Positions 1,334-60,198 of a stretch of 64,000 nt of DNA are shown here, piece after piece. The DNA comes from Hyalella azteca (lineage: Eukaryota > Arthropoda > Malacostraca > Amphipoda > Hyalellidae). Within the stretch, counting starts at the first letter, position 1, and each line of letters begins with the position of its first letter. The notes beneath the pieces are model-generated. The model was not told where the DNA came from and did not search any database. It was given only the letters and a program-made list of their open reading frames with translations. The stretch is from contig NW_025944196.1 in the NCBI RefSeq assembly GCF_000764305.2, positions 1-64,000 on the forward strand, read 5' to 3'. The translations under genes and the position numbers were made by a program.

Positions 1334-1961
1334 TTAGTGTCCTTTACCCTTTCCTTTGCCTTTTCCTTTACCCTTGCCAGGCGCAGGGAAAGGTTCTGGT
1401 TCTGCGATGGCGCCAACAGCCATCATCATCACCACCAAGGCAATCAGGCTCAGGTTCTGTAGAGACAAAATTCAAATGAAAAGCATATGTCAAATTATAA
1501 ATTTTTCTTTAACCGTAACAGAATTTAGAGGCGAACATGACTCTGCATTAGATGCCATTTATGATTCGTGTGAGCACGTAACTCAGACGAAACATGTCCG
1601 CTTCGGCTCAGGGTTCGAAAGGCTGGTTGCCTTTGTTTATGCAACTTGCTAGCTCGGTATGACTCGGCTCGGCCAACCCTTCTCATACTCTCAGGCGACC
1701 ATAAGGAGATTTTGACCAGAAACTGACTCCGATCGAGTGGCCAAGCAGACCCCGAATAACTTATTTGCGCCGAGTGCATCGACTTTTAGGCCGATGCCTA
1801 GGCGATCCCCGAATTTTGTTAGGGAGAATACGAGATTTCGAGGCAACGGAACACAGTTCAATACTCAAAATTTAATGTACAAATTACATACTTCGATATC
1901 GTCAGGAGTCTCAAGTATAGACTCTCGGCCTCAAGTATAGACTTACGAAGAAGGAGGCCAT
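1334..1961 (-). CDS. Secreted (GK)6GH peptide precursor, copy A (2 exons)
   Basis: Exon 1 is 1947-1961 (M-A-S-F-F). It is followed by a GTAAGT donor, a 490-bp phase-0 intron and an ACAG acceptor. Exon 2 is 1334-1456 and ends in TAA. The 45-residue product starts with a hydrophobic signal sequence (core LSLIALVVMMM, predicted cleavage after A-I-A). Four X-Pro dipeptides follow (EP-EP-FP-AP), then six Gly-Lys pairs and a terminal Gly-His. I chose this start because the 15-nt first exon, donor and TATA box recur in paralogues across the window. A TATATGAG box lies 69 bp upstream of the ATG. A TTTATT on the plus strand at 1247-1252 gives an AATAAA signal for the minus transcript. The sequence 3' of the stop (1199-1333) is nearly identical to that of copy D (12.88-13.02 kb), so A and D are direct duplicates. 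A secreted cationic peptide role is inferred; the function is unknown. Confidence 0.85.
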
Positions 1962-2022
1962 TGTTCAGGAGTCGCTGGATGCAGTTGCGTTCCGAGTGAT
2001 GGAGTCGGTCGCTGCACAGGCT

Positions 2023-2030
2023 CTCATATA
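2023..2030 (-). promoter_or_regulatory. TATA box of copy A
   Basis: On the minus strand this reads TATATGAG inside GGTCAGGGTATATGAG, 69 bp before the ATG. One unit of the 30-bp upstream repeat seen in copies D and H follows at about 2071-2092. Confidence 0.75.
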
Positions 2031-2070
2031 CCCTGACCGAGGCGCGGCGGCGAAGTCTATTGCGCAATAC

Positions 2071-2092
2071 CAGCACTTCAAAAGCGTGACAA
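2071..2092 (-). repeat. Single truncated unit of the 30-bp promoter-proximal repeat
   Basis: This carries the core CAGCACTTCAAAAGCGTGAC (plus-strand reading), which is repeated three times upstream of copy D and six times upstream of copy H. Here only one unit is present, about 40 bp upstream of the TATA box. Confidence 0.7.
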
Positions 2093-2275
2093 ACTCAATT
2101 TGAATATACTTATGTTATCCGAAAAAATCTATAAAATCCGCAAAATGTATGAAACACGATATCCGTTAAAGTAATTAGTGAAAAAATACAATAGTAATCC
2201 GGTAAATTATAAGTCCATTTATTCACCGTTCAAGTTTATTTTGTACCGAAGAAACATTTGAATTTTCTAGCGCTT

Positions 2276-2930
2276 TTACCACTTCTTGTGGCCCTTCTTG
2301 TGTCCCTTCTTCTTTCCCTTCTTATGTCCCTTCTTGTGTCCCTTCTTGTGTCCCTTCTTCCAGTGCTTGTGTCCACCCGGCACAGGGAAAGGCTCGGGTT
2401 CGGGTTCAGCGATGGTGCCGGTCACCAGCATCATCACCACCAGGGCAAGCACGCTCAGTTTCTGTAAGGCGGAGAAACATCGTGACTTTGTTCGGTGCTA
2501 AAGAAATATAAAAATGAATTTTCTCTTCTGAGTGAACTTCAAATTAAAAATATTATTGATATTTAATGCTGGGGATTTTCCTTTGGGTAAAACTTTTTTA
2601 TCTCACACATCTCGCCTTTTCTGCAATTTATCAGAACATAATCATTGTTCTTCAATCGAAACGAAGTTGAAGTTATTGTGCATTTCACGAAACTAACAAC
2701 TGACTCGTCGAAATTCTGAGGATATTTATAGGAAATTAAATCTTATTGTTGATAAATTTCCCTATAAATATATTTTTAAAATTATTAATAAGAAATTTTT
2801 GCCATGATGGAAGAAATGAAGCTAGTCTAGCTTCTTTAAAATAGCATAAATGTATGAAAATCTTGGACAGGCGATCTCGAATAGCTGCAGATGTACTGGA
2901 ATATTTAATGCTCACCAAGAAGGAAGCCAT
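2276..2930 (-). CDS. Secreted Lys/His/Gly repeat peptide precursor, copy B (2 exons)
   Basis: Exon 1 is 2916-2930 (M-A-S-F-L) with a GTGAGC donor. The 454-bp phase-0 intron ends in ACAG, and exon 2 is 2276-2461, ending in TAA. The product has 66 residues. The signal core is KLSVLALVVMMLVTGTIA, followed by five X-Pro dipeptides (EP-EP-EP-FP-VP). The mature part begins GGHKHW and continues as repeats of K-K-G-H with one K-K-G-K, ending in K-K-W. It is a divergent paralogue of the GK peptides: exon structure, signal and dipeptide propiece are retained, but the mature part is replaced by a strongly basic, histidine-bearing repeat. The alternating Lys-Lys and His suggests a pH-dependent charge or metal binding (inference). 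A TATATAAA box lies 75 bp upstream of the ATG. Confidence 0.85.
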
Positions 2931-2997
2931 GTTGCAGTAACGTCTTCCACCGAGGGCGTGAATTTGAAAGATGATCTCGATAGCGTTCAGCTGCTCA

Positions 2998-5114: not shown

Positions 5115-5129
5115 CAAGAAGGATGCCAT
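5115..5129 (-). pseudogene. Possible orphan first exon of the peptide family
   Basis: On the minus strand the sequence reads ATG GCA TCC TTC TTG (M-A-S-F-L), followed by GTAGGC as a possible donor. It matches 19 of 20 bases across the start region of copy B's first exon. I find no signal-peptide exon in the 1.1 kb downstream. It is either a relic of a deleted paralogue or a chance match. Confidence 0.35.
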
Positions 5130-8358: not shown

Positions 8359-8729
8359 ATGGCCTCCATTTTCGTGAGTCTATAACTTATTTTTTAAGGC
8401 AAAAGTGATCGAATGATATATTTTATAATTAAGTTCATTCTTTTTCTACACATCTTATTGATCACTGAGAAACATGTCTGTTTATTAAACATAATGTAAA
8501 TTATGTCATACTTCAAATGCCTCATTATATCTAACTTTTATGTAAAGAGGTAATGTTTTATGTATATTGTTTTAAATATCTATTCTAACATTTTCCACAG
8601 AACCTGAGCCTGATTGCCCTGGTGGTGATGATGATGGCGGCTGGCGCCATTGCTGATCCTAATCCCGAACCTTTCCCTGCTCCTGGTAAGGGAAAAGGCA
8701 AAGGGAAAGGAAAGGGCAAAGGCCATTGA
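8359..8729 (+). CDS. Secreted (GK)6GH peptide precursor, copy C (2 exons)
   Basis: Exon 1 is 8359-8373 (M-A-S-I-F) with a GTGAGT donor. The phase-0 intron is 227 bp, with an acceptor CCACAG. Exon 2 is 8601-8729, ending in TGA. The 47-residue product has a signal core LSLIALVVMMMAAGAIA, five X-Pro dipeptides (DP-NP-EP-FP-AP), six Gly-Lys pairs and a terminal Gly-His. Relative to copies A and H it carries an extra dipeptide and starts with Asp, a feature shared with copy I at 47.5 kb. An AATAAA lies at about 8870. It stands alone: the nearest paralogues are more than 4 kb away. Function is unknown; a processed cationic peptide is inferred. Confidence 0.88.
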
Positions 8730-12236: not shown

Positions 12237-12880
12237 CAGCATATTAGCTAAAGCAGTAGTGAAAAAGCATTAGTTTGCAGGTTTGTCTTCATTTTCAGCA
12301 TTGCGATGGTGTAAGTCAAGTGTGAACTTACTGTTTACTAGAATCTAGAACGTGAATCTAACAATAATGAGTTTTCGCGCGGATATTGTTTAACAATTAT
12401 TTGCTTATAATTATTTCTTGTATTTTAGGTGATTTAATTGGCTGAGGATTTAACGTTTCCGTCATTATTGTGGCTTCTAAATCCCTTCGTCCAACTACCA
12501 TACTGCCTTTGGCTACGCGTCATGAACGAGTGCATACGTCTCACAAACTGCATAAGTGCAAAAAGAAAGCTGCTCAAAAGTGCTATATAATAAAATCTTC
12601 TATTTATTGCTGCAAGTACATTTCTCATTATGTAGATGGTTTTGTTTATTTTTTGACAGTTTATTCTATTTCCACGGAAACAATAATGTGCCTCAATAAA
12701 ATTAATTTCATACCAAGTAAAGACATTTTGCTGCTAAATATTTTGGTTTTCTTCCAATCGATTTGTCGTACGTTAAAAAGATTCCTCATAAATCAAATAC
12801 TGAATACGTAGAATAGAATGAGGAACGTTGGTTCTCATCTTGTTTATTTAATGACAGAAATTAGTTTCTCTAGTTCGCAA
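12237..12880. other. No recognisable gene
   Basis: Two overlapping open frames on opposite strands (12434-12811) show no recognisable domain. I treat the region as intergenic. Confidence 0.4.
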
Positions 12881-12885
12881 CACAT

Positions 12886-13015
12886 TTATTGCGAAGGATG
12901 ATTGAGTGAGGACTTTTGGTTGAAGTGATTTATTAAAAATTTTCGGCAATAAATAATTAAAATACCATTTTAATCACCAGTGGCATAATTTGACGCAGAA
13001 GAGTCGGTAGTTTCT
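12886..13015 (-). repeat. 3' flank shared by copies A and D
   Basis: The sequence beginning TTTATTGCGAAGGATGATTG is nearly identical to 1199-1333, downstream of copy A. This shows that A and D arose by direct duplication of a unit larger than the gene. Confidence 0.85.
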
Positions 13016-13354
13016 TTAGTGTCCTTTACCCTATCCTTTGCCTTTTCCCTTACCCTTGCCAGGGGCAGGGAAAGGTTCTGGTTCTGCGATGGCGCCAACA
13101 GCCATCATCATCACCACCAAGGCAATCAGGCTAAGGTTCTGTAGATATTAAATACAAATGACGAGCATATATTCTAAAGTTTCAACATTTTTTTCGCAAA
13201 ATATGAGATTACCGCCAAAGAAAGGAAATTAACTTTATAATTTAATGTAATAATTGTATGCTCTGCATTATTAAGAGTGTCTATAAGCATGATATGTGAT
13301 AGCTGTAGATATGACTCTCAGTCCCAGGTATAGACTTACGAAGAAGGAGGCCAT
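13016..13354 (-). CDS. GK peptide precursor, copy D, with premature stop (2 exons)
   Basis: Exon 1 is 13340-13354 (M-A-S-F-F) with a GTAAGT donor. The intron is 201 bp with an ACAG acceptor, and exon 2 starts at 13138. The signal core and four X-Pro dipeptides (EP-EP-FP-AP) match copy A. After four Gly-Lys pairs and a Gly, an in-frame TAG at 13031-13033 replaces the Lys codon AAG of copy A. The ancestral TAA at 13016-13018 is still in frame behind it. The predicted product therefore loses two Gly-Lys pairs and the terminal Gly-His, giving 40 residues instead of 45. The promoter and splice sites are intact. It could be a functional shorter peptide or an early pseudogene. It is the inverted-duplication partner of copy H at 41 kb. 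Confidence 0.8.
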
Positions 13355-13415
13355 TGTTCAGGAGTCGCTGGATGCAGTTGCGTTCCGAGTGATGGAGTTT
13401 GTCGCTGCACAGGCC

Positions 13416-13423
13416 CTCATATA
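13416..13423 (-). promoter_or_regulatory. TATA box of copy D
   Basis: TATATGAG on the minus strand, 69 bp before the ATG, in the same CAGGGTATATGAGGGC context as copy H. Confidence 0.75.
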
Positions 13424-13463
13424 CCCTGACCGAGGCGCGGCGGCGAAGTCTATTGCGCAATGC

Positions 13464-13565
13464 CAGCACTTCAAAAGCGTGACGACTTTTTGCCAAACTT
13501 TTTGCCAGCACTTCAAAAGCGTGACGACTTTTTGCCAGCACTTCAAAAGCGTGACGAGTTTTTGT
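13464..13565 (-). repeat. 30-bp promoter-proximal tandem repeat, 3 copies plus a partial
   Basis: The plus-strand unit is CAGCACTTCAAAAGCGTGAC followed by GACTTTTTGC. Full units start near 13464, 13506 and 13536, with a 12-bp partial between the first two. The array begins about 40 bp upstream of the TATA box of copy D. Copy H has six units at the same place and copy A has one. Confidence 0.9.
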
Positions 13566-13994
13566 TGTACCTGAAGTCAAATGAATGCGTTGCTCACGCC
13601 TTATTCAAATCGCATGCTGATGGCGATAAGGCTAGCATGAATTCGAGAATTCACCATATGACGAACAATTTGGCCACCTTTCATATCACCAATAATTAGA
13701 TATCCAAAAATTCAGGTCATTCCATTCAGTCAACAAATATCTCGATAATATGAGTAAGGATACATAAATTATGTGAAATGAATGCAAGGACGACCTGCTT
13801 GTCCTCAGATCAAGGTATACGTAAACATAAGGTGGTACAAATTGTACACCTATAGTTCGCCCTGACGATTAAGCCGAGATTTTATGGAAAAAATGTAGTG
13901 AATATCATCAATAAAATCAACAAAACTATCAGTCTTAGGTTATGATAAAGTTGGTGATACGAGGAGCATTTCTACCCTTAAAAACTGATAAAAA

Positions 13995-14070
13995 CTGATG
14001 GAAAAGAATCGGCGACAGGCCACATCAGGCCTACACTTCAGAGCCGACATCACTATGTTATGTTATGTTA
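13995..14070 (+). mobile_element. LINE 3' tail fragment with (TATGT)n
   Basis: GAATCGGCGACAGGCC...GAGCCGACATCACTATG followed by TTATGTTATGTTA. It matches the 3' untranslated end of the LINE whose reverse transcriptase lies at 24.3-25.5 kb. Only the 3' end is present. Confidence 0.65.
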
Positions 14071-14840
14071 AGTTAACAACAAATGCGCAATTCATCAATA
14101 GTACGTAATGAAAATTAATTTAAAACTTCGTTGACATCGTCAAAACTTGATTTTAAAAAGTTACCAACGAAATGAATCGTTTCCAATTTGCCTCTAACTT
14201 ACTAAGCTTGCAGAGCAAAACAGCCATCAGTTTTGATATTATTTAATACTTAAATACTAGTAATTCTTTTCCTGCAACATATTTTCAAACATCAATTTGA
14301 TATAAAGTGATCGAATACAATCCAGTCAAGTGATGGGATTACTTATTTGGATATATAATGCACAAACTTATGAATTACCTAAGTAGAAGAATAATAATGT
14401 AATGAATAGTATTATAACCAGATGCAGTTGTTCTTCTTAATTCGTAAACTTGAAAGGACTCGTTATATATTGTGAACAAACAGGTCTTTGATATTTCAGA
14501 CATAACAAACTTTGGAAAATTTATGTATTCAGAAATTTTGACAGCTGTAGTATTTAGTTTTTAACTCCTGAAACTTTGGTTGGATGCGGGTGTGTTGGAG
14601 GATCAATAAAAACAATGTTAATTCATGCTTCGCAGCGAATTCTATACAAACAGATTTCGGAAGGTCATCTATAGGTGGTCCAATGATATTCTCCAAATAT
14701 GAAGCCAATAAAATGTGTATTTTTAGGATTCTTAGCGTTAGCACCTCATGAGTAACATGCAGACAAGAACTGCGAGAAAAGTTCGATAATTGTAATACTT
14801 CTGTGAAGTACATGATTGTAAATAACAACTATTAAGGAAC
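14070..14840. other. No recognisable gene
   Basis: A 99-codon minus-strand frame at 14529-14828 has no recognisable features. I see nothing else. Confidence 0.4.
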
Positions 14841-15099
14841 ATACGCGAGTTCGAGGTAGCTTGGCGCCATATTCACGAACTGAGGACTAGAAACGACAAG
14901 GGCACACTAGATAGTATGCATAGTATAGTATTCTTCCAATTTCACTTAGTTACAAGAAATTTTTTTACAAGAATGTCAGGTAGGTAAATGTTAGGTAACA
15001 ATTAGAATGCCATCGCTGCCAAGTCAGTGTGAGGTCATTCATGCTATATTGAGTGTCTGCCTTCAAGGCCCGTCAGGCGCTGTACCAACTTCTGCTGCG

Positions 15100-15107
15100 T
15101 ATATGAA
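15100..15107 (+). promoter_or_regulatory. TATA box of gene G1
   Basis: TATATGAA in the context GCGTATATGAAGGACGATG, 68 bp before the ATG. The spacing is the same as in the GK family. Confidence 0.75.
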
Positions 15108-15167
15108 GGACGATGTAGTGATTGATTGCTTCACACGCTCACGAACTATCTTACTAAAGACAATATA

Positions 15168-15669
15168 ATGCCTTCGTTCTTAGTAAGTGGTCTCGTATAA
15201 ATAAATGAAAAATACAGTCTAGCTCTACACATGCTAAAAAGCTGATATATTTGTTGTCTTTCTTCTCGCTCCAAACGGTATTACATATAAGCTTACGACA
15301 GATCTTTTAAATTTCATGTCACTGCTCGGTTTGAGAGGATCCCAGAAATTCTAGCACGTATGGTGGGGTCGAATAATTAGGAATAATATTATGAGTAACT
15401 TTCAGAAAAACTCAGTTCATCAAACTGTTCATTTGAATTAACAAAAGCCAAATAATAACAAATAATAAACTGTACAATTTCAGAAATTCAGATTGATCGC
15501 CCTTGTGATGCTACCTGCCGACGCTCCTGCTGATGCGGAACCAAAATTTTCCTCCGTGCTCGGCATGAGCAAGGATGAAGCTGGAGGAGAAGGAAGAGAG
15601 AAGAGTGATGTGGAGAATGAAGACATCATAATCTGCAAGCAAACCAGAATATTCAAGAAGAGATCTTAG
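15168..15669 (+). CDS. Secreted charged peptide precursor G1 (2 exons)
   Basis: Exon 1 is 15168-15182 (M-P-S-F-L) with a GTAAGT donor. The phase-0 intron is 301 bp with a TTTCAG acceptor. Exon 2 is 15484-15669, ending in TAG. The 66-residue product has a short hydrophobic part (KFRLIALVML), an Ala/Pro/Asp dipeptide-like stretch (PADAPADAEP), an acidic glycine-containing middle and a basic end containing one cysteine (ICKQTRIFKKRS). The exon structure and the TATA spacing tie it to the GK family, but the mature part is unrelated. The mirrored copy G2 at 38.8 kb is intact and of the same length, and it differs mainly in charged residues. The 34-bp minisatellite starts 195 bp after the stop. With one cysteine, disulfide-linked dimerisation is possible (inference). 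Confidence 0.8.
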
Positions 15670-15863
15670 AATATTTTTTTTCTGAATGGCAATTTAAAAG
15701 TTTAAAGGGACACCGAAAACACCGAAATTGGAATTTGATCGTGAATGCACAGTGGTTGAATTTTATCATTGAAGGAAATGACGTGAACATATTAAAATAA
15801 CTGTATGAGTCTCGACGCTGCTAGCCTCCCGAGGTTGTCATTACTTTAGGTATAGGTACTTTA

Positions 15864-16611
15864 GTACGTTAATTTCATTTACGCTATGAATGCCTGAGTA
15901 CGCTAATTTCATGTACGCTACCAATGCCTGAGTACGCTAATTTCATGTACGCTACCAATGCCTGAGTACGCTAATTTCATGTACGCTACCAATGCCTGAG
16001 TACGCTAATTTCATGTACGCTACCAATGCCTGAGTACGCTAATTTCATGTACGCTACCAATGCCTGAGTACGCTAATTTCATGTACGCTACCAATGCCTG
16101 AGTACGCTAATTTCATGTACGCTACCAATGCCTGAGTACGCTAATTTCATGTACGCTACCAATGCCTGAGTACGCTAATTTCATGTACGCTACCAATGCC
16201 TGAGTACGCTAATTTCATGTACGCTACCAATGCCTGAGTACGCTAATTTCATGTACGCTACCAATGCCTGAGTACGCTAATTTCATGTACGCTACCAATG
16301 CCTGAGTACGCTAATTTCATGTACGCTACCAATGCCTGAGTACGCTAATTTCATGTACGCTACCAATGCCTGAGTACGCTAATTTCATGTACGCTACCAA
16401 TGCCTGAGTACGCTAATTTCATGTACGCTACCAATGCCTGAGTACGCTAATTTCATGTACGCTACCAATGCCTGAGTACGCTAATTTCATGTACGCTACC
16501 AATGCCTGAGTACGCTAATTTCATGTACGCTACCAATGCCTGAGTACGCTAATTTCATGTACGCTACCAATGCCTGAGTACGCTAATTTCATGTACGCTA
16601 CCAATGCCTGA
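15864..16611 (+). repeat. 34-bp minisatellite, exactly 22 copies
   Basis: The unit is GTACGCTAATTTCATGTACG followed by CTACCAATGCCTGA. The array is 748 bp. All units but the first are essentially identical. The inverted arm has only 4 copies (38508-38643), and 22.09-22.15 kb has about 2, so the array expanded recently. It is non-coding. Confidence 0.95.
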
Positions 16612-17225
16612 GAACCACGCGGCGATGTAGCGATAACAGACCACAGTTTGCTGCGACCTTGTCAGAGAGTTCGTGGCCACCCTTGTGGTTGTGGCCGCTC
16701 GATCAAAATCGCTCTTCGTTAATATAAGAACAATCTTTTTTGTATTATTCTAGTCTTAAGAGCGAACAACAGAAAACATACGATGACCTAGGGCTCGTTG
16801 TTTGTGCTCAACAGAGCTGAGGCTTCACCGGAGGCCTGTTCGGCTTTCGTATCAAGGCGATCGGCCTAGTCTCAAGGTAAAGGAAAACTACGAATGTCAG
16901 TACTTCTTAATTGTAAAACTTAAATACAGAGCAAGAAAAATTAATCTTGTAGACGGCGATACCCACAAAATAAAGAAATTTGTCAACGGACAACTATCAT
17001 ATACATCGTAAAGGTCTCGGGAGGAAAGACGGCTTGACCATGGGGCTTGTCAGCTGTCGTTCAAGTCGGCGCGATTAAGACAGTGGCCAACTGCTCAGCG
17101 CCTGCGCAGGCTAAGCTTACAATTTGAAGATGAACTTGCTTGTTCACACCAATTTCGGGATACCAATACCCTTACACTCGTCATCTTTAGTGCCTTGCCA
17201 TCATCACTATAGATTTATTCTGTAG
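16612..17225 (+). repeat. Duplicated block B, copy 1
   Basis: This starts AGAACCACGCGGCGATG at the end of the minisatellite and is repeated with about 10% difference at 22147-22744, also directly after a minisatellite remnant. A 69-codon open frame at 16802-17011 is not preserved in the second copy, so I do not call it coding. Confidence 0.8.
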
Positions 17226-17720
17226 CAGACAGAATACGGTGATATCAATGTTAATAATTATACTTTTTGAAATTTCGTCCAAATGTATTCCTTACGCGCA
17301 AAAAAATTATTATTTGGACAGAAATGACACAAGCTTGAGCGAAATTTGAACTTGATTTGAATTTCAATAAATTGAAGAATAAAATAGTGGCAGGACACAA
17401 ACATCCTTACCAAATTAACGTCAAAAAAATATTCCCAACGTCAGAGCGGTCATTCGGACATAGATCAATGCAAGAAACTTTTAAGAGATATTTAGGATTC
17501 TTGTTCGTTGATCAAATTATTTTTGTTTATTTTGTAGTAACAATGAGTAGGGCAATGTTTTAATGATAATATAGTGATCTTCAATGCATTCGTTTGTAAG
17601 GAAATAATATGTTCACCACTAAAGCTCATGGGTATTCACTTTAAAATAAATAGAAGAGATTTTTTATGGTACAAAAGATTCTTCAACAATAATACACAAC
17701 GACTAAATTTTGATGTTATT
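17226..17720. other. Unique insert between duplicated blocks
   Basis: This stretch is replaced by a mariner fragment in the second copy of the region. It contains a 68-codon open frame (17357-17563) with basic composition and no recognisable domain. Confidence 0.35.
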
Positions 17721-17727
17721 TTGACGG

Positions 17728-18560
17728 CACAATTGGACAAGTCAGCATTCCTTACTCATCTAAAAGGATTCAAAATTACGCCGAAGAGACCAGTAACCAG
17801 GCAGGCATAGGTTTCTTACGCCGATTTAGTGCCCAATACGCAAGTAAAGTATAGAGTTATTTGCTGTATCCAAATAGAATTTCAGGAACTTCGTGTCTTT
17901 GTATCCTTAGTCCGGTATTCTAAAATGGCTGTATCAGGACGGTGAGAGCGAGCAAGCATTACAAGCATTAGAACCTCAATGAGCATTGGGAACTCAATGT
18001 ACTTACAGCGTCGGTTAAACGTCACATTTTATATAATTATACTAACCGGCAATAGAATATTCAGTTCTTATCTTTTATCATTGAAACAATACTAGATTAA
18101 CTATAAAGAATACAATAAACTCTAAATTTCCAATCTATTATTACAATATACACTGCAGTGTCACCCAGCTTCAACAAGTACCAAGGGTAATCAAAATTAC
18201 GAAATGAGACCGGTGGGAGAAAATTAGAACAGATTTCGTGTTTATGGAAAATCGGAACACGGCATCATAATTATTAATCAAAAGCCTTGAGATTAAAAGC
18301 AACACTTATTGCGACAATTTAAAATATTAACTTAATCGTCGCAGAAAAAGTCCAACAGCACACGAAGTAAAATAGTTTGTGATGATACGTTGTTTTGAAG
18401 GGGAAATGTCAAGTAAATGATTGAACATTTACTATCGGCCAATGTTGTGCTCGCAAGGGAAGAAAGTATTGCGCTTGTCAAAGCGTAGAAAAGCTATGCT
18501 ATAGGTCATTAATTGTTCTACTTGTTTTCCCTGGCGTTTCGGACGTAGCAGCCTCAGTCG
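17728..18560 (+). repeat. Duplicated block C, copy 1
   Basis: From ACAATTGGACAAGTCAGCA onwards, this block is repeated at 23235-24075 in the same order and orientation with scattered substitutions. I see no coding content. Confidence 0.8.
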
Positions 18561-18699
18561 GGAGCGCAGCCGTGGACCAAAAATTTAACTAGTAAACAAG
18601 CCCCAGCGCCAACGCCTACCCTCATAATGCAAAAACTATACTCAGCCTCACACCCAAGAAGCTCTAGGTAACTGAGTCATCTCACCACACCAACTTTAG

Positions 18700-19018
18700 C
18701 ATCCCAACTTTAGCACCCCTCAGTCCACGCTGAAGAACAATTTTAGTATTCTGCCGTCCTCAGCCCGGCTCGTATGTTGTCTTCCTAGCCGAACTCCCTG
18801 GTGCAGTGCAACATAACTACCGCGTACATACCCTCAGTAGGGCCTGCTGATGCAGGCAGGCTGTTGTTGCTAGCTACTTGCCAATGGTAGTGGTATGGAG
18901 GCAGACGATCAGGGGTTGTGCCCAGGAACATGTTGTTGTTCAATCGCATCTTGAAGGCCCCTATATATTGTAGGCTTCACTCACAGCTTCATCAGCAACA
19001 TTCGAGCATCGGCGGGTA
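18700..19018 (+). repeat. Duplicated block D, 5' part, copy 1
   Basis: The stretch around CAGTCCACGCTGAAGAACAA and CTGCTGATGCAGGCAGGCTG recurs at 24.07-24.30 kb. There a LINE fragment interrupts the block before it resumes at 25.5 kb. Confidence 0.7.
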
Positions 19019-19198
19019 GTCTCATGTGGGCCGTCATACAAGAAGAAGTCTTAAGTCTCATGTGGGCCGTCATACGCGAAGAAGTCTCAAGTCTCATGTG
19101 GGCCGTCATACAAGAAGAAGTCTTAAGTCTCATGTGGGCCGTCATACGCGAAGAAGTCTCAAGTCTCATGTGGGCCGTCATACGAGAAAAAGTCTCAA
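19019..19198 (+). repeat. 36-bp tandem repeat, 5 copies
   Basis: The unit is GTCTCATGTGGGCCGTCATA followed by CRMGAAGAAGTCTYAA. Units start at 19019, 19055, 19091, 19127 and 19163. The paralogous sites at 25.53 and 38.43 kb have a single unit. Because 36 is a multiple of 3, long open frames appear on both strands; I consider these accidental. Confidence 0.9.
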
Positions 19199-19199
19199 G

Positions 19200-19660
19200 A
19201 TAAAACCACAGGTTTTCGATCAAGCGATACCAATTAACAAGTTCCTTCCATTGATCACTTTCTCCGATTTACAAATCATGAACTCATCTTTTCTTGACTT
19301 TGTTTGTATTTGCACAATATTTATACGCAAAATTTGTAAAATATGGAATTTTAATGTTGCAACGTGAACTCTAACGGAACTTATTCCGCAATATTTTCAT
19401 TTACTGAAATAGCATAATTCAAAATGCGCGTAAATTTGTGTTTGATAAAACACATCGACGCGGCCGCTATATGAAAGCGTTTCGATGCTCATCTCCATGA
19501 TGGAGTTTTGCCACAGATGGTTTTATATGAAAATGTCCCTGTTGTTCAGAGTGGTTTCTGTGCTATTCAACCTTTAATTGTACATGATATTGAAAAAACC
19601 ATGAGGTATTTATCATCTAAATATGAGTAGTTTAAGGGGAAAATTACCCATACTTTAATA
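19200..19660 (+). repeat. Duplicated block D, 3' part, copy 1
   Basis: This is repeated directly at 25.57-26.10 kb and inverted at 37.97-38.44 kb. It is AT-rich and I see no gene. Confidence 0.75.
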
Positions 19661-19724
19661 ACCATGTTGTCTTGAACCTGATTATAAGTTCAGGGAATAG
19701 TTCTCAAAGGCAAGGTGGCCCAGT

Positions 19725-19800
19725 GATGGGCAGGGTGGCCGAGTGGTTAAAGTTCAGAGTACCAAGATTGACGCACTGGAGAGGCGGGGGTTCAAATACA
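19725..19800 (+). pseudogene. Degenerate tRNA-Ser/Leu-like sequence or SINE head
   Basis: GGTGGCCGAGTGGTTAA matches the internal A box and D-arm of class II tRNAs, and GGGGGTTCAAATAC matches a B box about 50 bp later. I cannot fold a convincing anticodon or acceptor stem, so it is probably a pseudogene or a tRNA-derived SINE head. It directly abuts the duplicated block at 19796. Confidence 0.4.
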
Positions 19801-20767
19801 ATCAGAATTCAGTTCACAAATAATGTGCTGCAGATTTAATTAGAATGTTTCAAAGAAAAGTGTTGACTGATGTTAGGGAACTATGAAAAATAATTACTGG
19901 AAAAAGAAGCATTTTAAAATATTTTTTAAGCAGTCGATTTTCTCTGTTATAAAATTGTTGATTCTATCTCACCCTTAACTTGTCCGTAACAATATTTGTT
20001 GCTCTTTTATTTAAGCTCTAGAGCGACAAATAATATGGTTAGGACATAAGGATTATTTCACGACGTACAAGCACAATCTTACCTACAGCTCCAGAATATT
20101 ACCTATAGAATTCTCCATAGAGCAGAAAATTAATCGTAACTTAGGGTCCTGTTGCCAAGTTGTGGCATCCAATACCCTTCTTTTCTATGCAGAGTGGGTC
20201 GTAGAGAGAATTTACGGCGGAAACAAATCTTTTTTAGTGAAGGGTCTGTGTGAGAAGATCTACCTTGGTGATCAATTCGTCCTTTGCGAGGTCCCAAGCC
20301 TAAAAGGTCTGAGGGGAACATCATCCTTTATGATCAATAATTCGTCCCATGCGATGTCCCAAGCCTGTTCGCAGAATGGTATTCTCCTTAAGGTCAGCTT
20401 CAAGAGAGTCTGAAAATTTGGGAAAGGCTTTCATCACTTCTTGGGAGTTCGATGCAATTTTATTCAAGCTGATGTTAAACCTCTCAAGTATGGATCTTGC
20501 ACCTTCAAGCGTTTTTATATATTTTTATGGAGTACGAGCACTTCCCATGCAGGCCATTATCGACGTAGAAATTATTTTCTATGAAAGCCTTGGACAGACG
20601 CGTCTGATCGGATTCGTGATGTCTCGCTGCGTATATAGTGTAGTCCGTATTGCGCTATTGTTGGACCGGGTTAATTGCCAAATAGATGCACAAGCCCCGA
20701 TATTGGACAAATTACCAGTGAAGTGCATTATTCTTAAACCAATAGAAGCGAAAGTAATCTTTATCTC

Positions 20768-21046
20768 TTATACAGGCAGGTAGAATTTGTAGAACATGTG
20801 TTCAATATCTGCAGAAAAACCGAATTCGCAGTCTCTAAATCTCAGCAGCCCGCCTATACGCCGGTTATTTTCATCTGGACCCTTGGGCATTGATTGATTC
20901 AGACTGGCACCATGATACTGCACCGAGCTGTCAAACACGAGACGCACATTGTTTTTCTTCGGATGTTTGACGGGAAACACGGGCAGCCACCAAGCATTGC
21001 CCCCTGGGGGTTGTCGCTCTTCGTCAGTAATTAACTGGCTCAACAT
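20768..21046 (-). pseudogene. BEL/Pao-type reverse transcriptase fragment
   Basis: The minus-strand frame carries WWLPVFPVKHPKKNNVRLVF, then DSSVQYHGASLN, then GPDENNRRIGGLLRFR and SADIEHMF. This is the order of the BEL/Pao reverse-transcriptase N-terminal motifs (LP-x-HPVxHPKK, VFD, SLN, GPD, GxLLRFR, ADIExMF). The catalytic YVDD region, protease, RNase H and integrase are not seen. It is a short relic. The copy at about 30.77-31.03 kb is frameshifted. Confidence 0.8.
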
Positions 21047-21559
21047 GGCCGGCCCCGAGAGGCCGGCTCATGCTCTCCAGGCACTGGAGATTTCCAATCC
21101 TGGAGATCCAGGATTTATAGGTTGCGCTTCATCCTCATCAAAGTATTGACCGTAATAGAAAGACTGCGTCTTTATTATTCGGGAATCACGGGTCGGACGA
21201 CTTGAATAGCAGAAGCATCGTCAGGTTACCGTAGTCGCTCATGTACGTCGACGCTGATATTATTTCCTTGAATTTGCAATCATTGCGAGATTTTATTAGT
21301 TCCATGAAATAAGAGAAAACTCTCACTCACTTTTACGAGAGAGAGAGAGCAACACAGCTAGCGAGTGTCGTGCCTTACCGTCCGCGTTTTGTTATGTGCA
21401 GGTGTTGGATCCGTTCCGCATGCGGTGCGACGCTGGAACCCCACGTACACGAGCGCGCTGGTACACATGTCGCTGTAGCTCTACCGCCTTGATTACAAAA
21501 GCCATCTTCTCGACTTCCAGATCATTGACTTAGAAAATGCCGCTGCTATTGAAATGAAT

Positions 21560-21800
21560 ATAACTCAGTACTCACGGCAGTGAGTGACAGAGAGCGCATT
21601 TTCTCGTGCATAAATCAGTTTTCATTGCGATTAGTACAGTGCATTAGAGCTAGAGATGTCGTATCTTTGATACAGGCATGCCCGCTTCTTAAAATCGACG
21701 AAAACGTGAAGTAACGGACGGACAAACGGACAGACAGACAGACGGACATGGCGAGCACAATAGTGCATTTTTTCTATAAAGAGAAAATACGCTAAAAAGC
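21560..21800 (+). mobile_element. MITE-like element, copy 2 (with internal insert)
   Basis: This runs from TATAACTCAGTACTCAC to AAATACGCTAAAAAGCG. It has about 80 extra bp between the outer CATTTTCTCG and the inner GACGAAAACGTGAAGT. The central GGAC/AGAC run is present. Confidence 0.7.
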
Positions 21801-22085
21801 GTAAGCCTGTTATAACATTTGATTTGTTAATAATTCAAGCGAGAGGCTGAACAATTAACAGTATGTCCGCGGGATGATTGCAAGCTCTGAATATGAGAGG
21901 TGTTCAGATGATTTATGAGAGGGCAATGCTTACTTCATTATTTTTACACTTCTGTTTGGCCGATTAATTAGCATGAAATAGAGAAAATTTACCTGTTTAT
22001 CATGTTACAAATATGGATTTACTATTTCCATAAGGTTTCCGATAAATGCGCTTGTATACTGTAAAAATATAATGGGTTCAGCTAC

Positions 22086-22744: not shown

Positions 22745-22745
22745 A

Positions 22746-39685: not shown

Positions 39686-40400
39686 CGTTATTTGCGGTTT
39701 TACATTTTATGGAATCAAATTTGCTTATGATTAAACTGCGAGATATTTTCAGCCGTATACTGTATTTTTATTACACTGGATCACTTACAACTGCAGACCA
39801 CGTGCTACTTCTAGTTAATTAAGGTGCTTGCCGTGAATTCGTTTCATTTTCTTCTGCCTTAATTTGCACTCATATCTTTGAAGTCGAAATTTTGAACATT
39901 TTCTAATTACCAAAATTTGAAGATAGTAAAGTCTAGGATTTTTGAGCTAATTTTTATTTATATTAAAAAATTATTCCATGTATAAATACGATAAATAAAT
40001 GCAATTATTCTATCTATTAAACAAATTTTCTTTCACTTATTCTATTATTTCATTCAATGCATCGGTTATTTAAATAAATAGTCACATCAGTTCTCTGCAT
40101 TTCTTTGTATTTGATCATTTCCGCTCGACTTTATAGAGAAAATATGTTATATGAAAATATGTGTCAATAAATTTTCAATATTTCTCAATAAAATGTCTCA
40201 ATAAATTTCAATATTGTTCTGCAGGCACACTGAAAATATTTGGTTTTAATGGTAAATTTGTGAAATAATTTTTGGAAATATCAACAGAATTTCAAGTAAA
40301 TTTTTAATATTTTTAACACTGTGTTCGTGGGTTTTTGATACTACTCCTGTGTTCAAAGGGGAAATACTATATACTATATTAATTCTACTCAGGTGTTCCT
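39686..40400. other. No recognisable gene
   Basis: AT-rich sequence between G2 and copy H. Related to the left arm only in part. I see no coding feature. Confidence 0.4.
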
Positions 40401-40760
40401 AACAGTATCATCTTCTTAAGAACCTGAGGTAGATGGTCAATAGTTATGATATTTCTATCATTAATTGATTAAAAAAAATCTCTCTAGATTACCAGGCGAG
40501 CTAAGTGTAAAATTGTACGAACTGTTGTTTCTATTTACCTTTGAGACAAACGAGTCGTCCTTGCATTCGTTTCACGTAATTCACGTATCCTTACTTTATA
40601 AGGTATGTTTCTAATATTGTTTTCTGAGTTAATATTTCTCATGTGACACATTCTTGAAATCTTTTAGATTCATTCGTGATAGTCTCAACGAATTCCTCAG
40701 GTAAATCCGATGAAAATGTAACCAACGCACACATAACATTCATATACGACATCAGGTAAA

Positions 40761-40940
40761 ACAAAAAGTCGTCACGCTTTTGAAGTGCTGGCAAAAAGTC
40801 GTCACGCTTTTGAAGTGCTGGCAAAAAGTCGTCACGCTTTTGAAGTGCTGGCAAAAAGTAGTCACGCTTTTGAAGTGCTGGCAAAAAGTCGTCACGCTTT
40901 TGAAGTGCTGGCAAAAAGTTGTCACGCTTTTGAAGTGCTG
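40761..40940 (+). repeat. 30-bp promoter-proximal tandem repeat, exactly 6 copies
   Basis: The unit is ACAAAAAGTCGTCACGCTTT followed by TGAAGTGCTG (later units begin GCAAAAAGT). It is 180 bp, with one or two substitutions in all. It ends 40 bp upstream of the TATA box of copy H. Long open frames on both strands across it come from the 30-bp period and are not genes. Confidence 0.95.
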
Positions 40941-40980
40941 GTATTGCGCAATAGACTTCGCCGCCGCGCCTCGGTCAGGG

Positions 40981-40988
40981 TATATGAG
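40981..40988 (+). promoter_or_regulatory. TATA box of copy H
   Basis: TATATGAG in CGGTCAGGGTATATGAGGGC, 69 bp before the ATG. CATCACTCG, a possible initiator, lies about 31 bp downstream. Confidence 0.8.
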
Positions 40989-41049
40989 GGCCTGTGCAGC
41001 GACCGACTCCATCACTCGGAACGCAACAGCTCCCAGCGACTCCTGAACA

Positions 41050-41371
41050 ATGGCCTCCTTCTTCGTAAGTCTATACTTGGGACCGAGAGCCACACCTATA
41101 CAGCTATCACATATTATGAGTATAGACACGCTTAATAATGTAGAGCATACAATTATTACATTAAAGTATAAAATTAATTTCCTTTCTGTGGCGGTAATAT
41201 CGTATTTTATGAAAAATGCTAAAATGTAAGCATATTTAATATCTACAGAACCTGAGCCTGATTGCCTTGGTGGTGATGATGATGGCTGCTGGCGCCATTG
41301 CCGAACCAGAACCTTTCCCTGCACCTGGCAAGGGTAAAGGAAAAGGCAAAGGGAAGGGTAAAGGACACTAA
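41050..41371 (+). CDS. Secreted (GK)6GH peptide precursor, copy H (2 exons)
   Basis: Exon 1 is 41050-41064 (M-A-S-F-F) with a GTAAGT donor. The phase-0 intron is 184 bp with an ACAG acceptor. Exon 2 is 41249-41371, ending in TAA. The 45-residue product has a signal core LSLIALVVMMMAAGAIA, dipeptides EP-EP-FP-AP, six Gly-Lys pairs and a terminal Gly-His. It is the mirror partner of copy D, but here the Lys codon that is a stop in D is intact. It has the largest upstream 30-bp array of any copy. It is the cleanest family member in the window: intact promoter, splice sites and reading frame. Confidence 0.9.
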
Positions 41372-42355
41372 GGACATTCTCGACGTCAAAAATACCGCGG
41401 GTGATTAAAATGGTGATTTCAGCTATTTATTGACCAGAATTTTTATTAAATCTTATAATACAAATGTCTCCACTCATTCATCCAATGTGCAGTACATATG
41501 CTGACTACTAAAGAAAAACTCGTTGGACTAATCTCTATCATCAAAGAAACAAAACGAGTGAATGAGTTCTTTATTATATGCTTCCTGTATTTGATTCTTG
41601 GAAAATTTGCTGCTCGAACGACAGATCACTATAATGCAAGCAACCAAGAATTACCAAAAGAATATCATCTCCTATGCACGGAATAAATTTTGTACAGCCA
41701 AATTTTTCTATTATGTGGAAACGGGAGAAAGTTCCACGATTTACACATCATAATGAATGGACTTGTGGTACTATCAATATCCAAACAATATCTTCGATAT
41801 TTCACGCACTACTTTTCCTTGCATGAAACGTTAGGATAGTTGTAATTTTGCAGCTGGACAATGCACGCTGGTATCAACACTGATGACTAAATCAAAGTTG
41901 AAATTCCAATAGACAATACAACCGGCTACAAATACATTGAATTATCAGAAGAATAACCACAACGGCAATATTCGTGCACGTTCCCAGCAATAGTTTCTAC
42001 GTTTAATTACTACACTGAAGTCACATCGTCGTAATGCGAACAATAACAATAACTTTCACCATTAACCAATGGTCATTCACTACTCTTTCTTTTTAACGCG
42101 AAACGAAGCAGTGATTAAACGTTAAATCGAGCAATTATGCCCCTACAAACTTAAGCAAGCACAACAATGAGGGTCCAGCCTCACCAAACGAAATTATTGA
42201 ACATCGCAATATCTTAGAATAATGCAAACAATCTAAAGTCTCTTTTATCCATGTACGAGCAGTCTGCATCTCCAGACTCATACCCTTCAACTATTTAGGA
42301 ACTACAAAAATCTCAAAAAAAGTTCCGACAAACCCTCAAAATGTTTCTTACACCT
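41372..42355. other. No recognisable gene
   Basis: I see no motif-bearing frame. A 62-codon frame at 41498-41686 is unsupported. Confidence 0.4.
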
Positions 42356-47527: not shown

Positions 47528-48403
47528 ATGGCATCTCTCTTCGTAAGTGAGAGTAAATTATTTGGAAATGTGACAAAATCAGGATAGAACAGCTATAGAA
47601 GTGCACCATATAATTATTTACATAATTTCTATAATAATGAGTAGATGAAATACTTTATTGACCGCCAATCAAATAGCATTGAAACTAATTAAGTACGTTC
47701 AATTTTATGCTATAGACCCATGTCTTCATATTCATCGTTAAGAGGACTGAATAATGACATATAAGCTACAGCTTTTCCTTGGAACTCATGCGAGTTCATT
47801 GCAGCTTAAATCCAATCTACATCTCACACAACCCACAAATTCAGATACAATTGCGCTCTAGTTTTCTCATTCAAATTTTCCTATGAAATGAAACTTGAAA
47901 CCTTCCAGCACTGCACTTGCTGGGCATGCTCGTAAATTGAGAATGGAGCAGGCCTTTTCGAATCTATGTTTATTAGTCTTAGATTGAACACAAATTTGAC
48001 TTTGACTTTGTTTCAAATCTCGGCCCGTATTTTGGTCAGGGGTTTGGTAAAAAATTTCATGTATCTGGGCAGCATGGACTGTTATTAGAAGCCACGAAAT
48101 CTGAATGTAAAATATAAAACAAATCCATATTCAGGCCTCATGATTCCATGTTCTGAAAAGCATATAAGAGAGTTGGTAGCTCAGTGTCAAAAATTGGAAG
48201 CAATTCAAAACCAATCACTCAATCATGATATGAAATGACATTGTTAATTAACAAATCTATCGCTTTTTCCTCAGAATTTGAGCGTTTTCGCTATGGTGGT
48301 GGTGATGATGGTGGTTGGTGCCATCGCTGACCCTAATCCTCAACCTTTCCCTGAACCCGGTAAGGGCAAAGGCAAGGGCAAAGGGAAGGGCAAAGGACAC
48401 TGA
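47528..48403 (+). CDS. Secreted (GK)6GH peptide precursor, copy I (2 exons)
   Basis: Exon 1 is 47528-47542 (M-A-S-L-F) with a GTAAGT donor. The phase-0 intron is 732 bp, the longest in the family, with a TTTTTCCTCAG acceptor. Exon 2 is 48275-48403, ending in TGA. The 47-residue product has a divergent signal core (LSVFAMVVVMMVVGAIA), five X-Pro dipeptides (DP-NP-QP-FP-EP), six Gly-Lys pairs and a terminal Gly-His. The signal has drifted by several conservative changes, while the dipeptide register and GK tail are perfectly kept. It lies outside the inverted duplication and groups with copy C by its Asp start and TGA stop. Confidence 0.88.
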
Positions 48404-53082: not shown

Positions 53083-53680
53083 TCAGTAGCCGTGGTCGCC
53101 ATGTCCTTTTCCGAAACCGCCTTTGTCATGACCTCCATGTCCATGGACATTGCTGAACCCGCCGTGGCCTTTCCCATGCCCTCCGTGTCCACTATGTCCA
53201 CCAAATCCACCATGTCCTCCTTTTCCACTAAATCCCCCGTGTCCACCGTGGTGCCCGTGTCCTCCGTGGTGCCCGTGTTCACCGTGGTGCCCGTGTCCAC
53301 CGTGATGCCCATGTCCTCCGTGATGCCCGTGTCCATCGTCGTCGTTGTCGTATCCACCAGGATTGGCCACGGCCGGAGCTACTAAGGCCAGAGCCAGCAG
53401 GCACAGCAAAATGATGATCTGTCGGCAGATTATTCTCCTTAATTCCAAAGAACGATTCATAGTAAACATTCTAAGATAACTCAAATATACCAGTTCCTCC
53501 TAATTATTGCATTATTGTAAAGCAGGGAGTAACATTGTTGCAATCATGACAGTTTAAAGTTCAATACAACTAATTCATCGTGCTAACAGTTTGCTAGAGC
53601 AAAATATACAGAAAATAAATCCAAAGTGACTCTCAAACAATAATTATAGAAAAATCTTTATCCACCTTAAATGAAGCCAT
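53083..53680 (-). CDS. Secreted Gly/His-rich peptide precursor J (2 exons)
   Basis: Exon 1 is 53666-53680 (M-A-S-F-K) with a GTGGAT donor. The phase-0 intron is 247 bp with a CCGACAG acceptor. Exon 2 is 53083-53418, ending in TGA. The 116-residue product has a strong signal core (IIILLCLLALALVAPAVA), one X-Pro dipeptide (NP), an acidic link (YDNDDD) and then repeats of GHGHHGG. It ends in Gly/Phe/Lys/His-rich sequence. The histidine density suggests zinc or copper binding; glycine-rich antimicrobial or structural roles are alternatives (inference). The longer open frame reaching 53484 is read-through of the intron. The 15-nt first exon and phase-0 junction link it to the GK family. TATAAAAG is at 53761-53768. 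Confidence 0.82.
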
Positions 53681-57459: not shown

Positions 57460-57495
57460 TGGGCCCATTGCCCCAGGGGTGGGGCAATGGGCCCA
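57460..57495. repeat. Perfect 16-bp stem hairpin
   Basis: TGGGCCCATTGCCCCA, a GGGG spacer, and TGGGGCAATGGGCCCA. The arms are exact inverse complements. Confidence 0.9.
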
Positions 57496-57819
57496 TTTTG
57501 ACAATTTTACAAAATAGTGTTTCATTAAAAATTGAATAACTCTATAGCGTGTAATTCACATCATACATTCTTCACTAGTTGTAACTTTAAAGTTTAAACA
57601 AAACCTAGAACTACCTCGTATCAATTAAAACTTCATCAAAAATTTAGTTTAAGAAAAGGGAGGGCCCGCTGCCCCATGTTACCCTATTTAACTTGCGAAA
57701 GCAATCAGCTGAAGTTTCCTCGATACTCAATTTTTTTGTCTTCCTGCTTCCGAGAAAGACGTGATAAGGTCAGATCTATTGTGAATAGTATAACATAGCA
57801 TCATGGTATAGCATTTTTT

Positions 57820-58345
57820 TATAGAATAGAATAGAATAGAAGTGTCTATCTATTGTGTATAGTATAACATAGCATCATGACATGGATGTGTTACAACGCT
57901 GTTTTTTTAGTTTATAGCCGTGGCCCCTGGTGTTGGTTCTTGTTTCAAATTCTAGTAATCCTTCTGGGACCTTGTCAGCATTATAGTATAGTACAGAATT
58001 TTTTTTGGAATATGTTCCAAGACAATAATATATCTTTCGATTTCTTCGATCAATATTTTTATCTGTCGTAGTTCAAGAGGCATAGCATGGCATATTGGCA
58101 TAGTGACGTCGGCGCTGAAGAGTAGGCCAGATGAGGCCTGTCGCCGATTCTTGTACTTTTCGTGACTTGTCCACAGGAGATCTAAAAACACGTCCTTTGT
58201 CCGGAACTTTTCCAAACTTACGATGGTTTGAAATAGCTACTAGACTTCCACCGGGTTCGATATGGTACTAGGCATTTCAAGTCTGAACATATATTTCTCC
58301 ATAGCTTTATCTAGTCTGTTCTTGAACTCGTTTGTACTCGGCTTA
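57820..58345 (-). mobile_element. LINE 3' fragments, rearranged
   Basis: Segment 57867-57970 matches 24.61-24.72 kb of the LINE. Segment 58095-58345 matches its C-terminal coding end and 3' tail. In sense order the tail comes before the more upstream part, so two insertions or a rearrangement are present. A short GAATA pentanucleotide run lies at about 57822-57840. Confidence 0.65.
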
Positions 58346-58349
58346 GTAA

Positions 58350-59430
58350 ATTAAGTATTACAAACAATGTTGTAAAACTTCTTCAATGCGTAAAATAGAA
58401 ATTGATTATTGGTGTACGATGACTGATATGGTGTACTAAGACTTCAATGCATCACAGATCGGTATGTGATGGTCAGATCAATACAAACGTGTGGCCTCCA
58501 ACTTCTCTACAAGTTACATACTGACTCTCGTCACCGAATAAACTGAAATTTTAATCATTACACCGAGACCAGTACGCTCGAAAAAACTTTTTAACAGGCT
58601 TTTTTTGTTTTTTTTTTCTTCGTAGACAGGTTGTTTGTGACAAAATAAAGATACTGTCGATAAATCACTATGCCACGATAAATGCGCGGAAACTGGATAA
58701 TCGTAATTGACATCGTCTTTGCACTTTGCATGCTAACATTGACTTAAATTTTTTCTCTGAGGAGACTTTGCGTCCCATTAACTTAAGTTCTATCCATACA
58801 TTCCCTATGTACTGAGGGAACAAATCTAGATGGACACACGTGGTGCACTAAATTATTTTTTAATTATTCTTAACTTGAACCATTCTTAAGCGCTCCAACA
58901 CTTTCAGAACGTTGTCAGTGTCTAATGGCATCCCTGTTAGCCTGTACAAATATATTTTTTTTAGTCTATGACTTTGACTTCATGGCTAAGATATTCGGAA
59001 TACAGGTTTTTCTGTCCCACATTAATGTTTCTTTTGAACCCTCAACAATGCTGAACAATGTTTTTTCGTAAACCATCGATGAGTAAAAGACATTAACATT
59101 TATCGTTTATATTCATTTATCCAACTCCATACACAAGTAGCTCAAACTTTAAAACTGACTCTCTAAAGCCCGGGTACAATACCCAACGCAACTGCCAACT
59201 GAACACAATTGCGATAACCCACTGATCAGTGTCAGTAGTTGAAACTTTAAGAAGATACTCATATTGTATCTGTGATCTCAAAAATTATTTATTCCAGTAT
59301 CATGATAAAAAGCTCAACCATGACACCAGTTTGTTTTAAGGTAGGAGTTAGGCTGAATTTGCACACTTGCTCGTTTCATTCCCTTAATAGCATGCGTAAT
59401 GAAATAACAAGAACACAATAACTCTTCGGC
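58350..59430. other. No recognisable gene
   Basis: AT-rich, with no frame above 60 codons that shows a motif. Confidence 0.4.
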
Positions 59431-59435
59431 CTCAC

Positions 59436-60198
59436 TTAGTGGCCATAGCCACCACCATGCCCGTGGCCAAATCCTCCTCCGAATCCTTTCCCAAATCCAC
59501 CCCCGCCGAATCCTCCTTTGAATCCGTGGCCTTTGCCGTATCCACCATTACCATGGCCAAAACCATGTCCGCTGTGGTGGCTAAAGCTGTGTCCGCCGTG
59601 GTGACCAAATCCACCAGGTACGGCCACTGCTATAGCGATGAAGGCCATCAGCAGCACCGCGAGGGTCAGAGGAATCTAAAGGAACCAATTTACAATTACA
59701 TTTATATAGTAACATTTATAGCATTTTTCTATAGTCTATAGTTATCGCTTTCTAACAACAGTGATCTAATTTTGTTTAGAATTTTTTAATTTATATGTGA
59801 AACAATGAGCGCATCTATGAGACTCATATTAATCGATATACAGAAAAATTCAGTTACAATCGTGAATTTTATCGCCGCATATTACCTCGCACTGTAAATT
59901 TTCTGGTAAATTTATTTCCAGCTCTGTTATCAGCTACAAATTATAATATTTGTACAACTGTACAATATTTATATTTGCATTAATTTAGTCAACATTGTGA
60001 TAATTCGGCCCTGAATTTAAAGGTTCCATTTCTTGAGCTTTTAAAAGTTTCATTTCTTGAGCCTTATTCTGAATGATTATTTAACAAGAGCATATTTCAA
60101 TTTCGCAAAGCGATTTTCGCACGTAAATTACACAGTATTAAAAAACTTTATACAATTTATGACTTTTAGAATGTATCTCTTACTTTAAATGACGCCAT
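59436..60198 (-). CDS. Secreted Gly/His/Phe-rich peptide precursor K (2 exons)
   Basis: Exon 1 is 60184-60198 (M-A-S-F-K) with a GTAAGA donor. The phase-0 intron is 508 bp with a CCTTTAG acceptor. Exon 2 is 59436-59675, ending in TAA. The 84-residue product has a signal core (IPLTLAVLLMAFIAIAVA), one X-Pro dipeptide (VP), then GGFGHHGGHSFSHHSGHG and Gly/Phe/Lys/His repeats ending GGGYGH. It is a paralogue of J by exon 1, signal plus single X-Pro, and composition, but it lacks J's acidic link. The terminal Gly-His parallels the GK family. Metal binding or a glycine-rich antimicrobial or cuticular role is inferred. TATAAAAAG lies 87 bp upstream of the ATG. Confidence 0.82.

Follow-up and report, generated by a model that had tools for sequence, protein, structure and literature searches.

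What are the very small loci spread over the first 64,000 nucleotides of contig NW_025944196.1 of the amphipod Hyalella azteca (RefSeq assembly GCF_000764305.2, forward strand; this whole stretch is hereafter the window), and do they belong together? On balance, we favor the view that they form a lineage-specific cluster of secreted peptides, built on one cassette and trimmed at X-Pro dipeptides, with a likely use in innate defense or glandular secretion. The loci are labelled here GK1 to GK7, KKGH, AB1, AB2, GH1 and GH2.

A shared gene plan

About a dozen small genes in the window share one plan, with splicing predicted. A pattern scan of both strands for a five-codon exon of the form M-(A/P)-S-x-x followed by GT yielded 12 candidates, 11 of which pair with a downstream second exon in phase 0. 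A search for phase-0 acceptors that lead into a hydrophobic start recovered 11 of the 12 second exons, that of GK7 included, the second exon of AB1 being read from the frames. The outcome is eleven loci with a five-codon first coding exon and a phase-0 GT-AG intron of 184–732 bp, as a sequence-only reading of this DNA had proposed, together with its twelfth locus, the solitary second exon of GK7 at 36012 on the minus strand. All 12 second exons open with 18 leader codons up to a small-x-Ala site, and in the 11 loci that have exon 1 the leader comprises exactly 23 residues (5+18). In its strict, post hoc form, the cassette pattern matches the window 12 times, whereas 100 second-order Markov sequences average 0.02 matches, with at most 1 in any of them. 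Similarly, the exon-2 signature (18 codons to a small-x-small site, then X-Pro), whose small-x-small and proline criterion was set after the loci had been seen, is found in 14 of the 158 hydrophobic phase-0 candidate exons of the window; these 14 comprise the 12 loci plus two candidates that are paralogous to each other and sit immediately upstream of AB exon 1.

Specifically, the seven GK loci are distributed over both strands (the span is given here with exon 1 and its translation, the intron and exon 2, in this order). On the minus strand lie GK1 (1334–1961; 1947–1961, MASFF; 490 bp; 1334–1456), GK3 (13031–13354; 13340–13354, MASFF; 201 bp; 13031–13138) and GK7 (35896–36012, exon 2 only), and on the plus strand GK2 (8359–8729; 8359–8373, MASIF; 227 bp; 8601–8729), GK4 (29257–29599; 29257–29271, MASFF; 217 bp; 29489–29599), GK5 (41050–41371; 41050–41064, MASFF; 184 bp; 41249–41371) and GK6 (47528–48403; 47528–47542, MASLF; 732 bp; 48275–48403). 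The KKGH locus is on the minus strand (2276–2930; 2916–2930, MASFL; 454 bp; 2276–2461). The two AB loci, whose tails are acidic/basic with a single Cys, are AB1 on the plus strand (15168–15669; 15168–15182, MPSFL; 301 bp; 15484–15669) and AB2 on the minus strand (38837–39338; 39324–39338, MPSIL; 301 bp; 38837–39022). Finally, the minus strand carries GH1 (53083–53680; 53666–53680, MASFK; 247 bp; 53083–53418), with a Gly/His-rich tail, and GH2 (59436–60198; 60184–60198, MASFK; 508 bp; 59436–59675), with a tail rich in Gly, His and Phe.

The 15 nt are only the coding portion of exon 1: since every intact locus except GK2 (10 of the 11) has a looser TATA-like box between −68 and −88 relative to the ATG, the full first exon would measure roughly 50 nt or more. 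A strict promoter pattern, namely TATA followed by an initiator (Inr)-like YCA 27–33 nt past its start and at most 120 bp upstream, precedes 6 of the 11 intact loci as compared to 3.5% of 2457 ATGs, the loci being related and thus not independent. The 5' splice site is GTAAG in 8 of the 11 loci, GTGAG in two, and a weak GTGGA in GH1. AATAAA or ATTAAA occurs within 400 bp downstream of all 12 loci, which, in DNA this AT-rich, is weak evidence.

The twelfth five-codon candidate, MASFL at 5115–5129 on the minus strand, is directly followed by gtaggc and is probably a relic: no convincing second exon was found in roughly 800 bases downstream. It has no strict TATA-Inr within 120 bp upstream. A hydrophobic frame at 4745, considered as its second exon, was discarded as lacking the small-x-Ala/X-Pro signature.

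The X-Pro segment and the payloads

Directly after the small-x-Ala site, where cleavage is predicted by rule, every one of the 12 second exons encodes between one and five X-Pro dipeptides. This recurrent step, along with the common leader, strengthens the earlier suggestion of a conserved secretion cassette with differing payloads. The segment reads EPEPFPAP in GK1, GK3 and GK5, EPKPFPEP in GK4 and GK7, DPNPEPFPAP in GK2, DPNPQPFPEP in GK6 and EPEPEPFPVP in KKGH; in all eight copies it is pure X-Pro, and the differences in length amount to a whole dipeptide. A single pair is present in AB1 and AB2 (EP), GH1 (NP, with GGYD next) and GH2 (VP). The payload that follows is (GK)6GH in GK1, GK2, GK5 and GK6, (GK)5GH in GK7, (GK)4GH in GK4, and GKGKGKGKG up to an in-frame stop in GK3. 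The (GK)nGH tails without a stop comprise 10–14 residues and contain no Tyr, Gln or Cys; the computed average mass of GKGKGKGKGKGKGH is about 1324. In KKGH, the segment is followed by GGHKHW and then by KKGH-type repeats. The GH1 tail contains 42 Gly and 26 His among 91 residues, and that of GH2 contains 31 Gly and 11 His among 59. Read from the other strand, the GK repeat gives Pro-rich frames with no leader seen, and this option was rejected.

The sequence-only reading distinguished four unrelated mature types. This division has to be revised: GK and KKGH are 61% identical over 41 residues and are, hence, related, as are GH1 and GH2 to each other, and the payloads are better described as falling into three leader groups, namely GK with KKGH, AB, and GH. 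Do these groups go back to a single cassette? It is quite possible, if short of probable, that there are two separate sets, GK/KKGH/AB being one family and GH1/GH2 another, with MASF and the early intron shared by chance or convergence, an arrangement that would still be compatible with the secreted-peptide reading. Consistent with two sets, the second exons of GK1 and GK6 find no match to the GH leaders in tblastn at E up to 0.05, the TATA boxes of the GH loci are at −87/−88 as compared to −68 to −75 at the other loci that have one, and the GH loci lie at one end of the window. Nevertheless, the 5+18 leader, the small-x-Ala site and the X-Pro step are common to both, Gly-Gly follows X-Pro in GH1, GH2 and KKGH, and the KKGH second exon matches those of GH1 and GH2 in tblastn at E values of 0.001 and 0.003, which are inflated, composition correction being off.

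Selection at the codon level

If these loci encode peptides, is the peptide sequence maintained? With the 28 pairwise comparisons among the eight GK/KKGH copies pooled (they are not independent), the leader shows a proportion of synonymous differences (pS) of 0.45 and of nonsynonymous differences (pN) of 0.09; for the first four GK units, in the 21 comparisons among the seven GK copies, pS is 0.54 and pN is 0. The comparison was also restricted to three disjoint pairs (GK1/GK3, GK4/GK7 and GK2/GK6, with GK5 and KKGH excluded), in which the leader has 11 synonymous differences over 45.8 sites versus 8 nonsynonymous over 146.2 (p 0.0008), and the first four GK units have 6/16 versus 0/56 (p 5e-5). 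These units were taken unfiltered, and the stop in GK3 lies beyond them and is, hence, uncounted. As the GK units differ only synonymously in the disjoint pairs, selection on the protein appears to hold the GK payload, the repeat being the most constrained part tested in the seven GK copies. A tally of 43 differences, all in third positions, was set aside as circular, the units having been pre-filtered as coding for GK.

The expectation that the mature part evolves fast is, thus, not borne out within the GK copies; the AB pair shows no constraint. It is very improbable that the cluster is a dying family, made up largely of pseudogenes whose coding potential is a relic. The stop in GK3, the orphan exon 1 at 5129 and the unconstrained AB pair speak for such decay; the retention of both exons and an uninterrupted payload by 10 of the 12 loci, and the purely synonymous divergence of the GK repeats in the units compared, speak against it.

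Relatives and known systems

Searches for relatives returned nothing close. Pfam gave no family, cuticle domains included, at E up to 0.01 for five representative precursors, GH1 and GH2 among them; in NCBIfam, a bacterial and archaeal library, only KKGH (5) and GH1 (1) had matches, all far below the cut-off. GK5 (45 aa), the sole member compared with a set of 5.8 billion proteins, produced 114 word candidates, none of which had an E value of 1 or lower. Of the 39 and 91 pattern matches that two alignments had in viral contigs, none was confirmed, and GH1, the only query to PDB, had no match. Among six distinctive strings sought in the literature, the plain GK run alone occurs, in work that concerns, by title, human immunodeficiency virus (HIV) and polysialic acid; GKGKGKGK combined with insect retrieved, again by title, only trypanosome histone work; and queries on glycine-lysine peptides, on glycine-rich antimicrobial peptides (AMPs) of termites and cockroaches, and on repeat peptides of Blattodea showed no such family among the matches listed. 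Because the Pfam, NCBIfam, GK5 protein, viral-contig and literature searches are null, we set the family down as X-Pro-type secreted peptide precursors bearing what would be an undescribed payload and cassette, in agreement with the earlier statement that no described family with GK-GH products is known.

The X-Pro step itself has precedents (the papers cited here are represented by extracts of their text). When X-Pro pairs follow the signal site, they are potential substrates of dipeptidyl peptidase IV (DPP IV, DPP4)-type enzymes, and many insect AMPs have them; similar N-terminal dipeptides are reported for cecropin, diptericin, drosocin, hymenoptaecin and venom peptides, and cecropin and melittin are active only once the pairs have been removed (PMC12882233). 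In promelittin, activation involves stepwise trimming by DPP4 (PMC8150751). Among the fly Mibins, 102 of 144 have X-Pro, 13 of these with 2–3 pairs in tandem (PMC12882233). The present loci resemble promelittin, procecropin, drosocin, diptericin, hymenoptaecin and the Mibins in placing X-Pro dipeptides directly after the predicted signal peptide and ahead of the putative active peptide; compared by description, they differ in the four to five perfect pairs of GK and KKGH and in the pure Gly-Lys payload of GK.

Other likenesses are partial. GH1 and GH2 share Gly/His-rich low-complexity tails with tenecin 3 and holotricin 3, a likeness of general character rather than of alignment. In the armadillidins of terrestrial isopods, the signal peptide likewise marks the members and the Gly-rich repeats vary, but these are GGGX repeats, often Arg-rich, each transcriptome having a single sequence except in one dataset, and the extract of that paper describes no X-Pro segment (PMC7017220). 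The Nasonia abaecin/navitripenicin and hymenoptaecin genes have a conserved phase-0 intron, N-terminal in the hymenoptaecins, which for abaecin/navitripenicin has been proposed to mediate exon shuffling; they differ in their mature sequences, and no five-codon exon is described in the extract (PMC2853521).

Possible release and function

The following route from gene to peptide can be envisaged. The cassette would begin, in most cases, with a promoter of the TATA type, and would continue with a first exon that stops past codon 5, a phase-0 intron, 18 further leader codons, the X-Pro segment and the payload. A cut of the signal-peptidase type would occur at small-x-Ala and, once the product is secreted, a DPP IV-like enzyme would strip the X-Pro pairs singly and halt at the first pair without proline. 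Such trimming would yield (GK)nGH, GGHKHW followed by KKGH repeats, the acidic/basic peptide, or the Gly/His-rich peptides. At pH 7, the computed payload charge is +3.8 to +5.8 for the GK forms (+5.8 for (GK)6GH), +16.4 for KKGH and +3.7 for GH2. In an extended strand, alternating Gly and Lys would place all positive charges on one face, a fit for polyanions such as bacterial envelopes, and the His-rich members might be metal binders or become charged under acidic conditions. Given X-Pro trimming, an N-terminal Gly-Gly-His, named as an amino-terminal copper and nickel (ATCUN) motif in PMC11169826, is expected in KKGH alone among the 12 loci.

A broader formulation, which we find tentative and rather doubtful, is that of a modular cassette given unrelated low-complexity payloads at one locus, with X-Pro as a release switch, unmasking of Gly-Gly-His for copper or nickel in one member, and (GK)nGH as a new class of natural polycations.

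Defense appears to be the likeliest use of the peptides, albeit a faintly indicated one, and several observations weigh against it or against the cluster as a whole. IbinA/B, secreted peptides that flies produce upon immune induction, failed to kill any of the four bacteria tested (PMC12882233), so that such peptides need not be antimicrobial. A simple scan found one NF-kB-type site as compared to 2.7 expected, that is, no enrichment and no sign of immune control. The payload charge at pH 7 is computed as +0.8 for AB1, −1.0 for GH1 and −2.2 for AB2; AB1 and AB2 differ at 3/43 synonymous and 13/155 nonsynonymous sites, with no purifying selection (Fisher p 1.0). GK3 is truncated within its repeat, and GH1 combines its weak 5' splice site with in-frame ATGs within the putative intron. 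The link between GH and GK rests on architecture and MASF, and strict TATA-Inr is absent within 120 bp upstream of GK2, AB1, AB2, GH1 and GH2.

Could the products be structural or matrix peptides instead, that is, Gly-rich, Lys-rich and His-rich secretions from the epidermis, silk glands or accessory glands that undergo cross-linking or hardening by metal and have no part in defense? The Gly and His share of the GH1 and GH2 tails fits such a role. Gly/His-rich composition is common in cuticle and adhesive proteins, and a short first coding exon that splits the signal peptide is common in insect cuticular protein genes; a literature search for such an exon in cuticular protein genes found nothing. 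We regard this alternative as unlikely without being negligible: the 10–14-residue GK tails offer no Tyr, Gln or Cys for cross-linking, the five precursors scanned are null in Pfam, and X-Pro segments are described in AMPs and venom peptides (PMC12882233).

Venom or exocrine peptides kept as inactive X-Pro precursors, in the manner of promelittin, appear improbable. The stepwise activation of promelittin by DPP4 is a parallel (PMC8150751), and an arrangement in multicopy clusters is typical for genes of venoms; on the other hand, Gly-interrupted GK repeats would not be expected to form an amphipathic helix of the melittin type, and the mature part shows no diversification within GK. The mention of venom in the sequence-only reading gains no specific support.

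If the secreted-peptide cluster is expressed, it would provide simple natural polycations of alternating Gly and Lys along with His-rich partners, all carrying their own release segment, as well as a single locus in which a secretion cassette has been copied and then given new payloads. Intron-split genes of 41–66 codons (GK, KKGH and AB) would be easily overlooked by annotation, and similar families may be undercounted.

The first exon of GK7 and the growth of the cluster

Why does GK7 lack a first exon? No ATG with GT at +15 was found for it in 36000–39000 on the minus strand. The GK7 block tracks the GK4 block in inverted order to 36079/28508, or to 36075/28511 in another comparison, and resumes at 36071/29430, and about 920 bp of the GK4 block, with GK4 exon 1 at 29257, are not present in the GK7 block. 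A single N at 36073, one of two in the window, coincides with this break and marks it, so that GK7 exon 1 was probably lost in an assembly gap. A true deletion, that is, a genuinely exon-less twelfth gene, is the alternative, but the N counts against it and a gap is the simplest reading. The second single N, at 51402, possibly hides another gap.

The same comparison suggests that part of the growth of the cluster came from an inverted duplication of three genes, now broken. Its left arm (12643–29700, plus) carries GK3 (−), AB1 (+) and GK4 (+) with extra DNA inserted; the right arm (35794–41747, minus), colinear with the left in inverted order, carries GK7 (−), AB2 (−) and GK5 (+). GK3 pairs with GK5, AB1 with AB2 and GK4 with GK7, at block identities of roughly 66–93%, and GK1 is an additional close copy of GK3/GK5. 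The extra DNA of the left arm includes repeated and transposon-like stretches.

Surrounding repeats

Scans of the window for tRNA and Rfam families found none, and ten further long open reading frames gave no Pfam family. A DDE transposase match (PF13358) at 22725–23072 (+) is weak and below the curated cut-off. A reverse transcriptase fragment (PF00078) lies at 24953–25642 (−); its relatives in metagenomes reach 93% identity across about half of the fragment (best 120 of 209 protein matches) and may be host DNA, and nothing was confirmed in viral contigs. A 2.3-kb direct repeat of 94% identity occupies 19795–22085 and 29774–32051, and within it a frame at 20771–21067 (−) is BEL/Pao-like by eye only, with no Pfam match. 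A 34-bp tandem array has about 22 copies near AB1 (15863–16612) and about 4 near AB2 (38500–38644), and a 30-bp tandem repeat lies upstream of exon 1 of GK3 (13497–13564, about 2.3 copies) and GK5 (40762–40941, about 6). Between the arms, at 33508–34095, there is a tandem array of 23/91-bp units, the 91-bp unit being present in about 6.5 copies.

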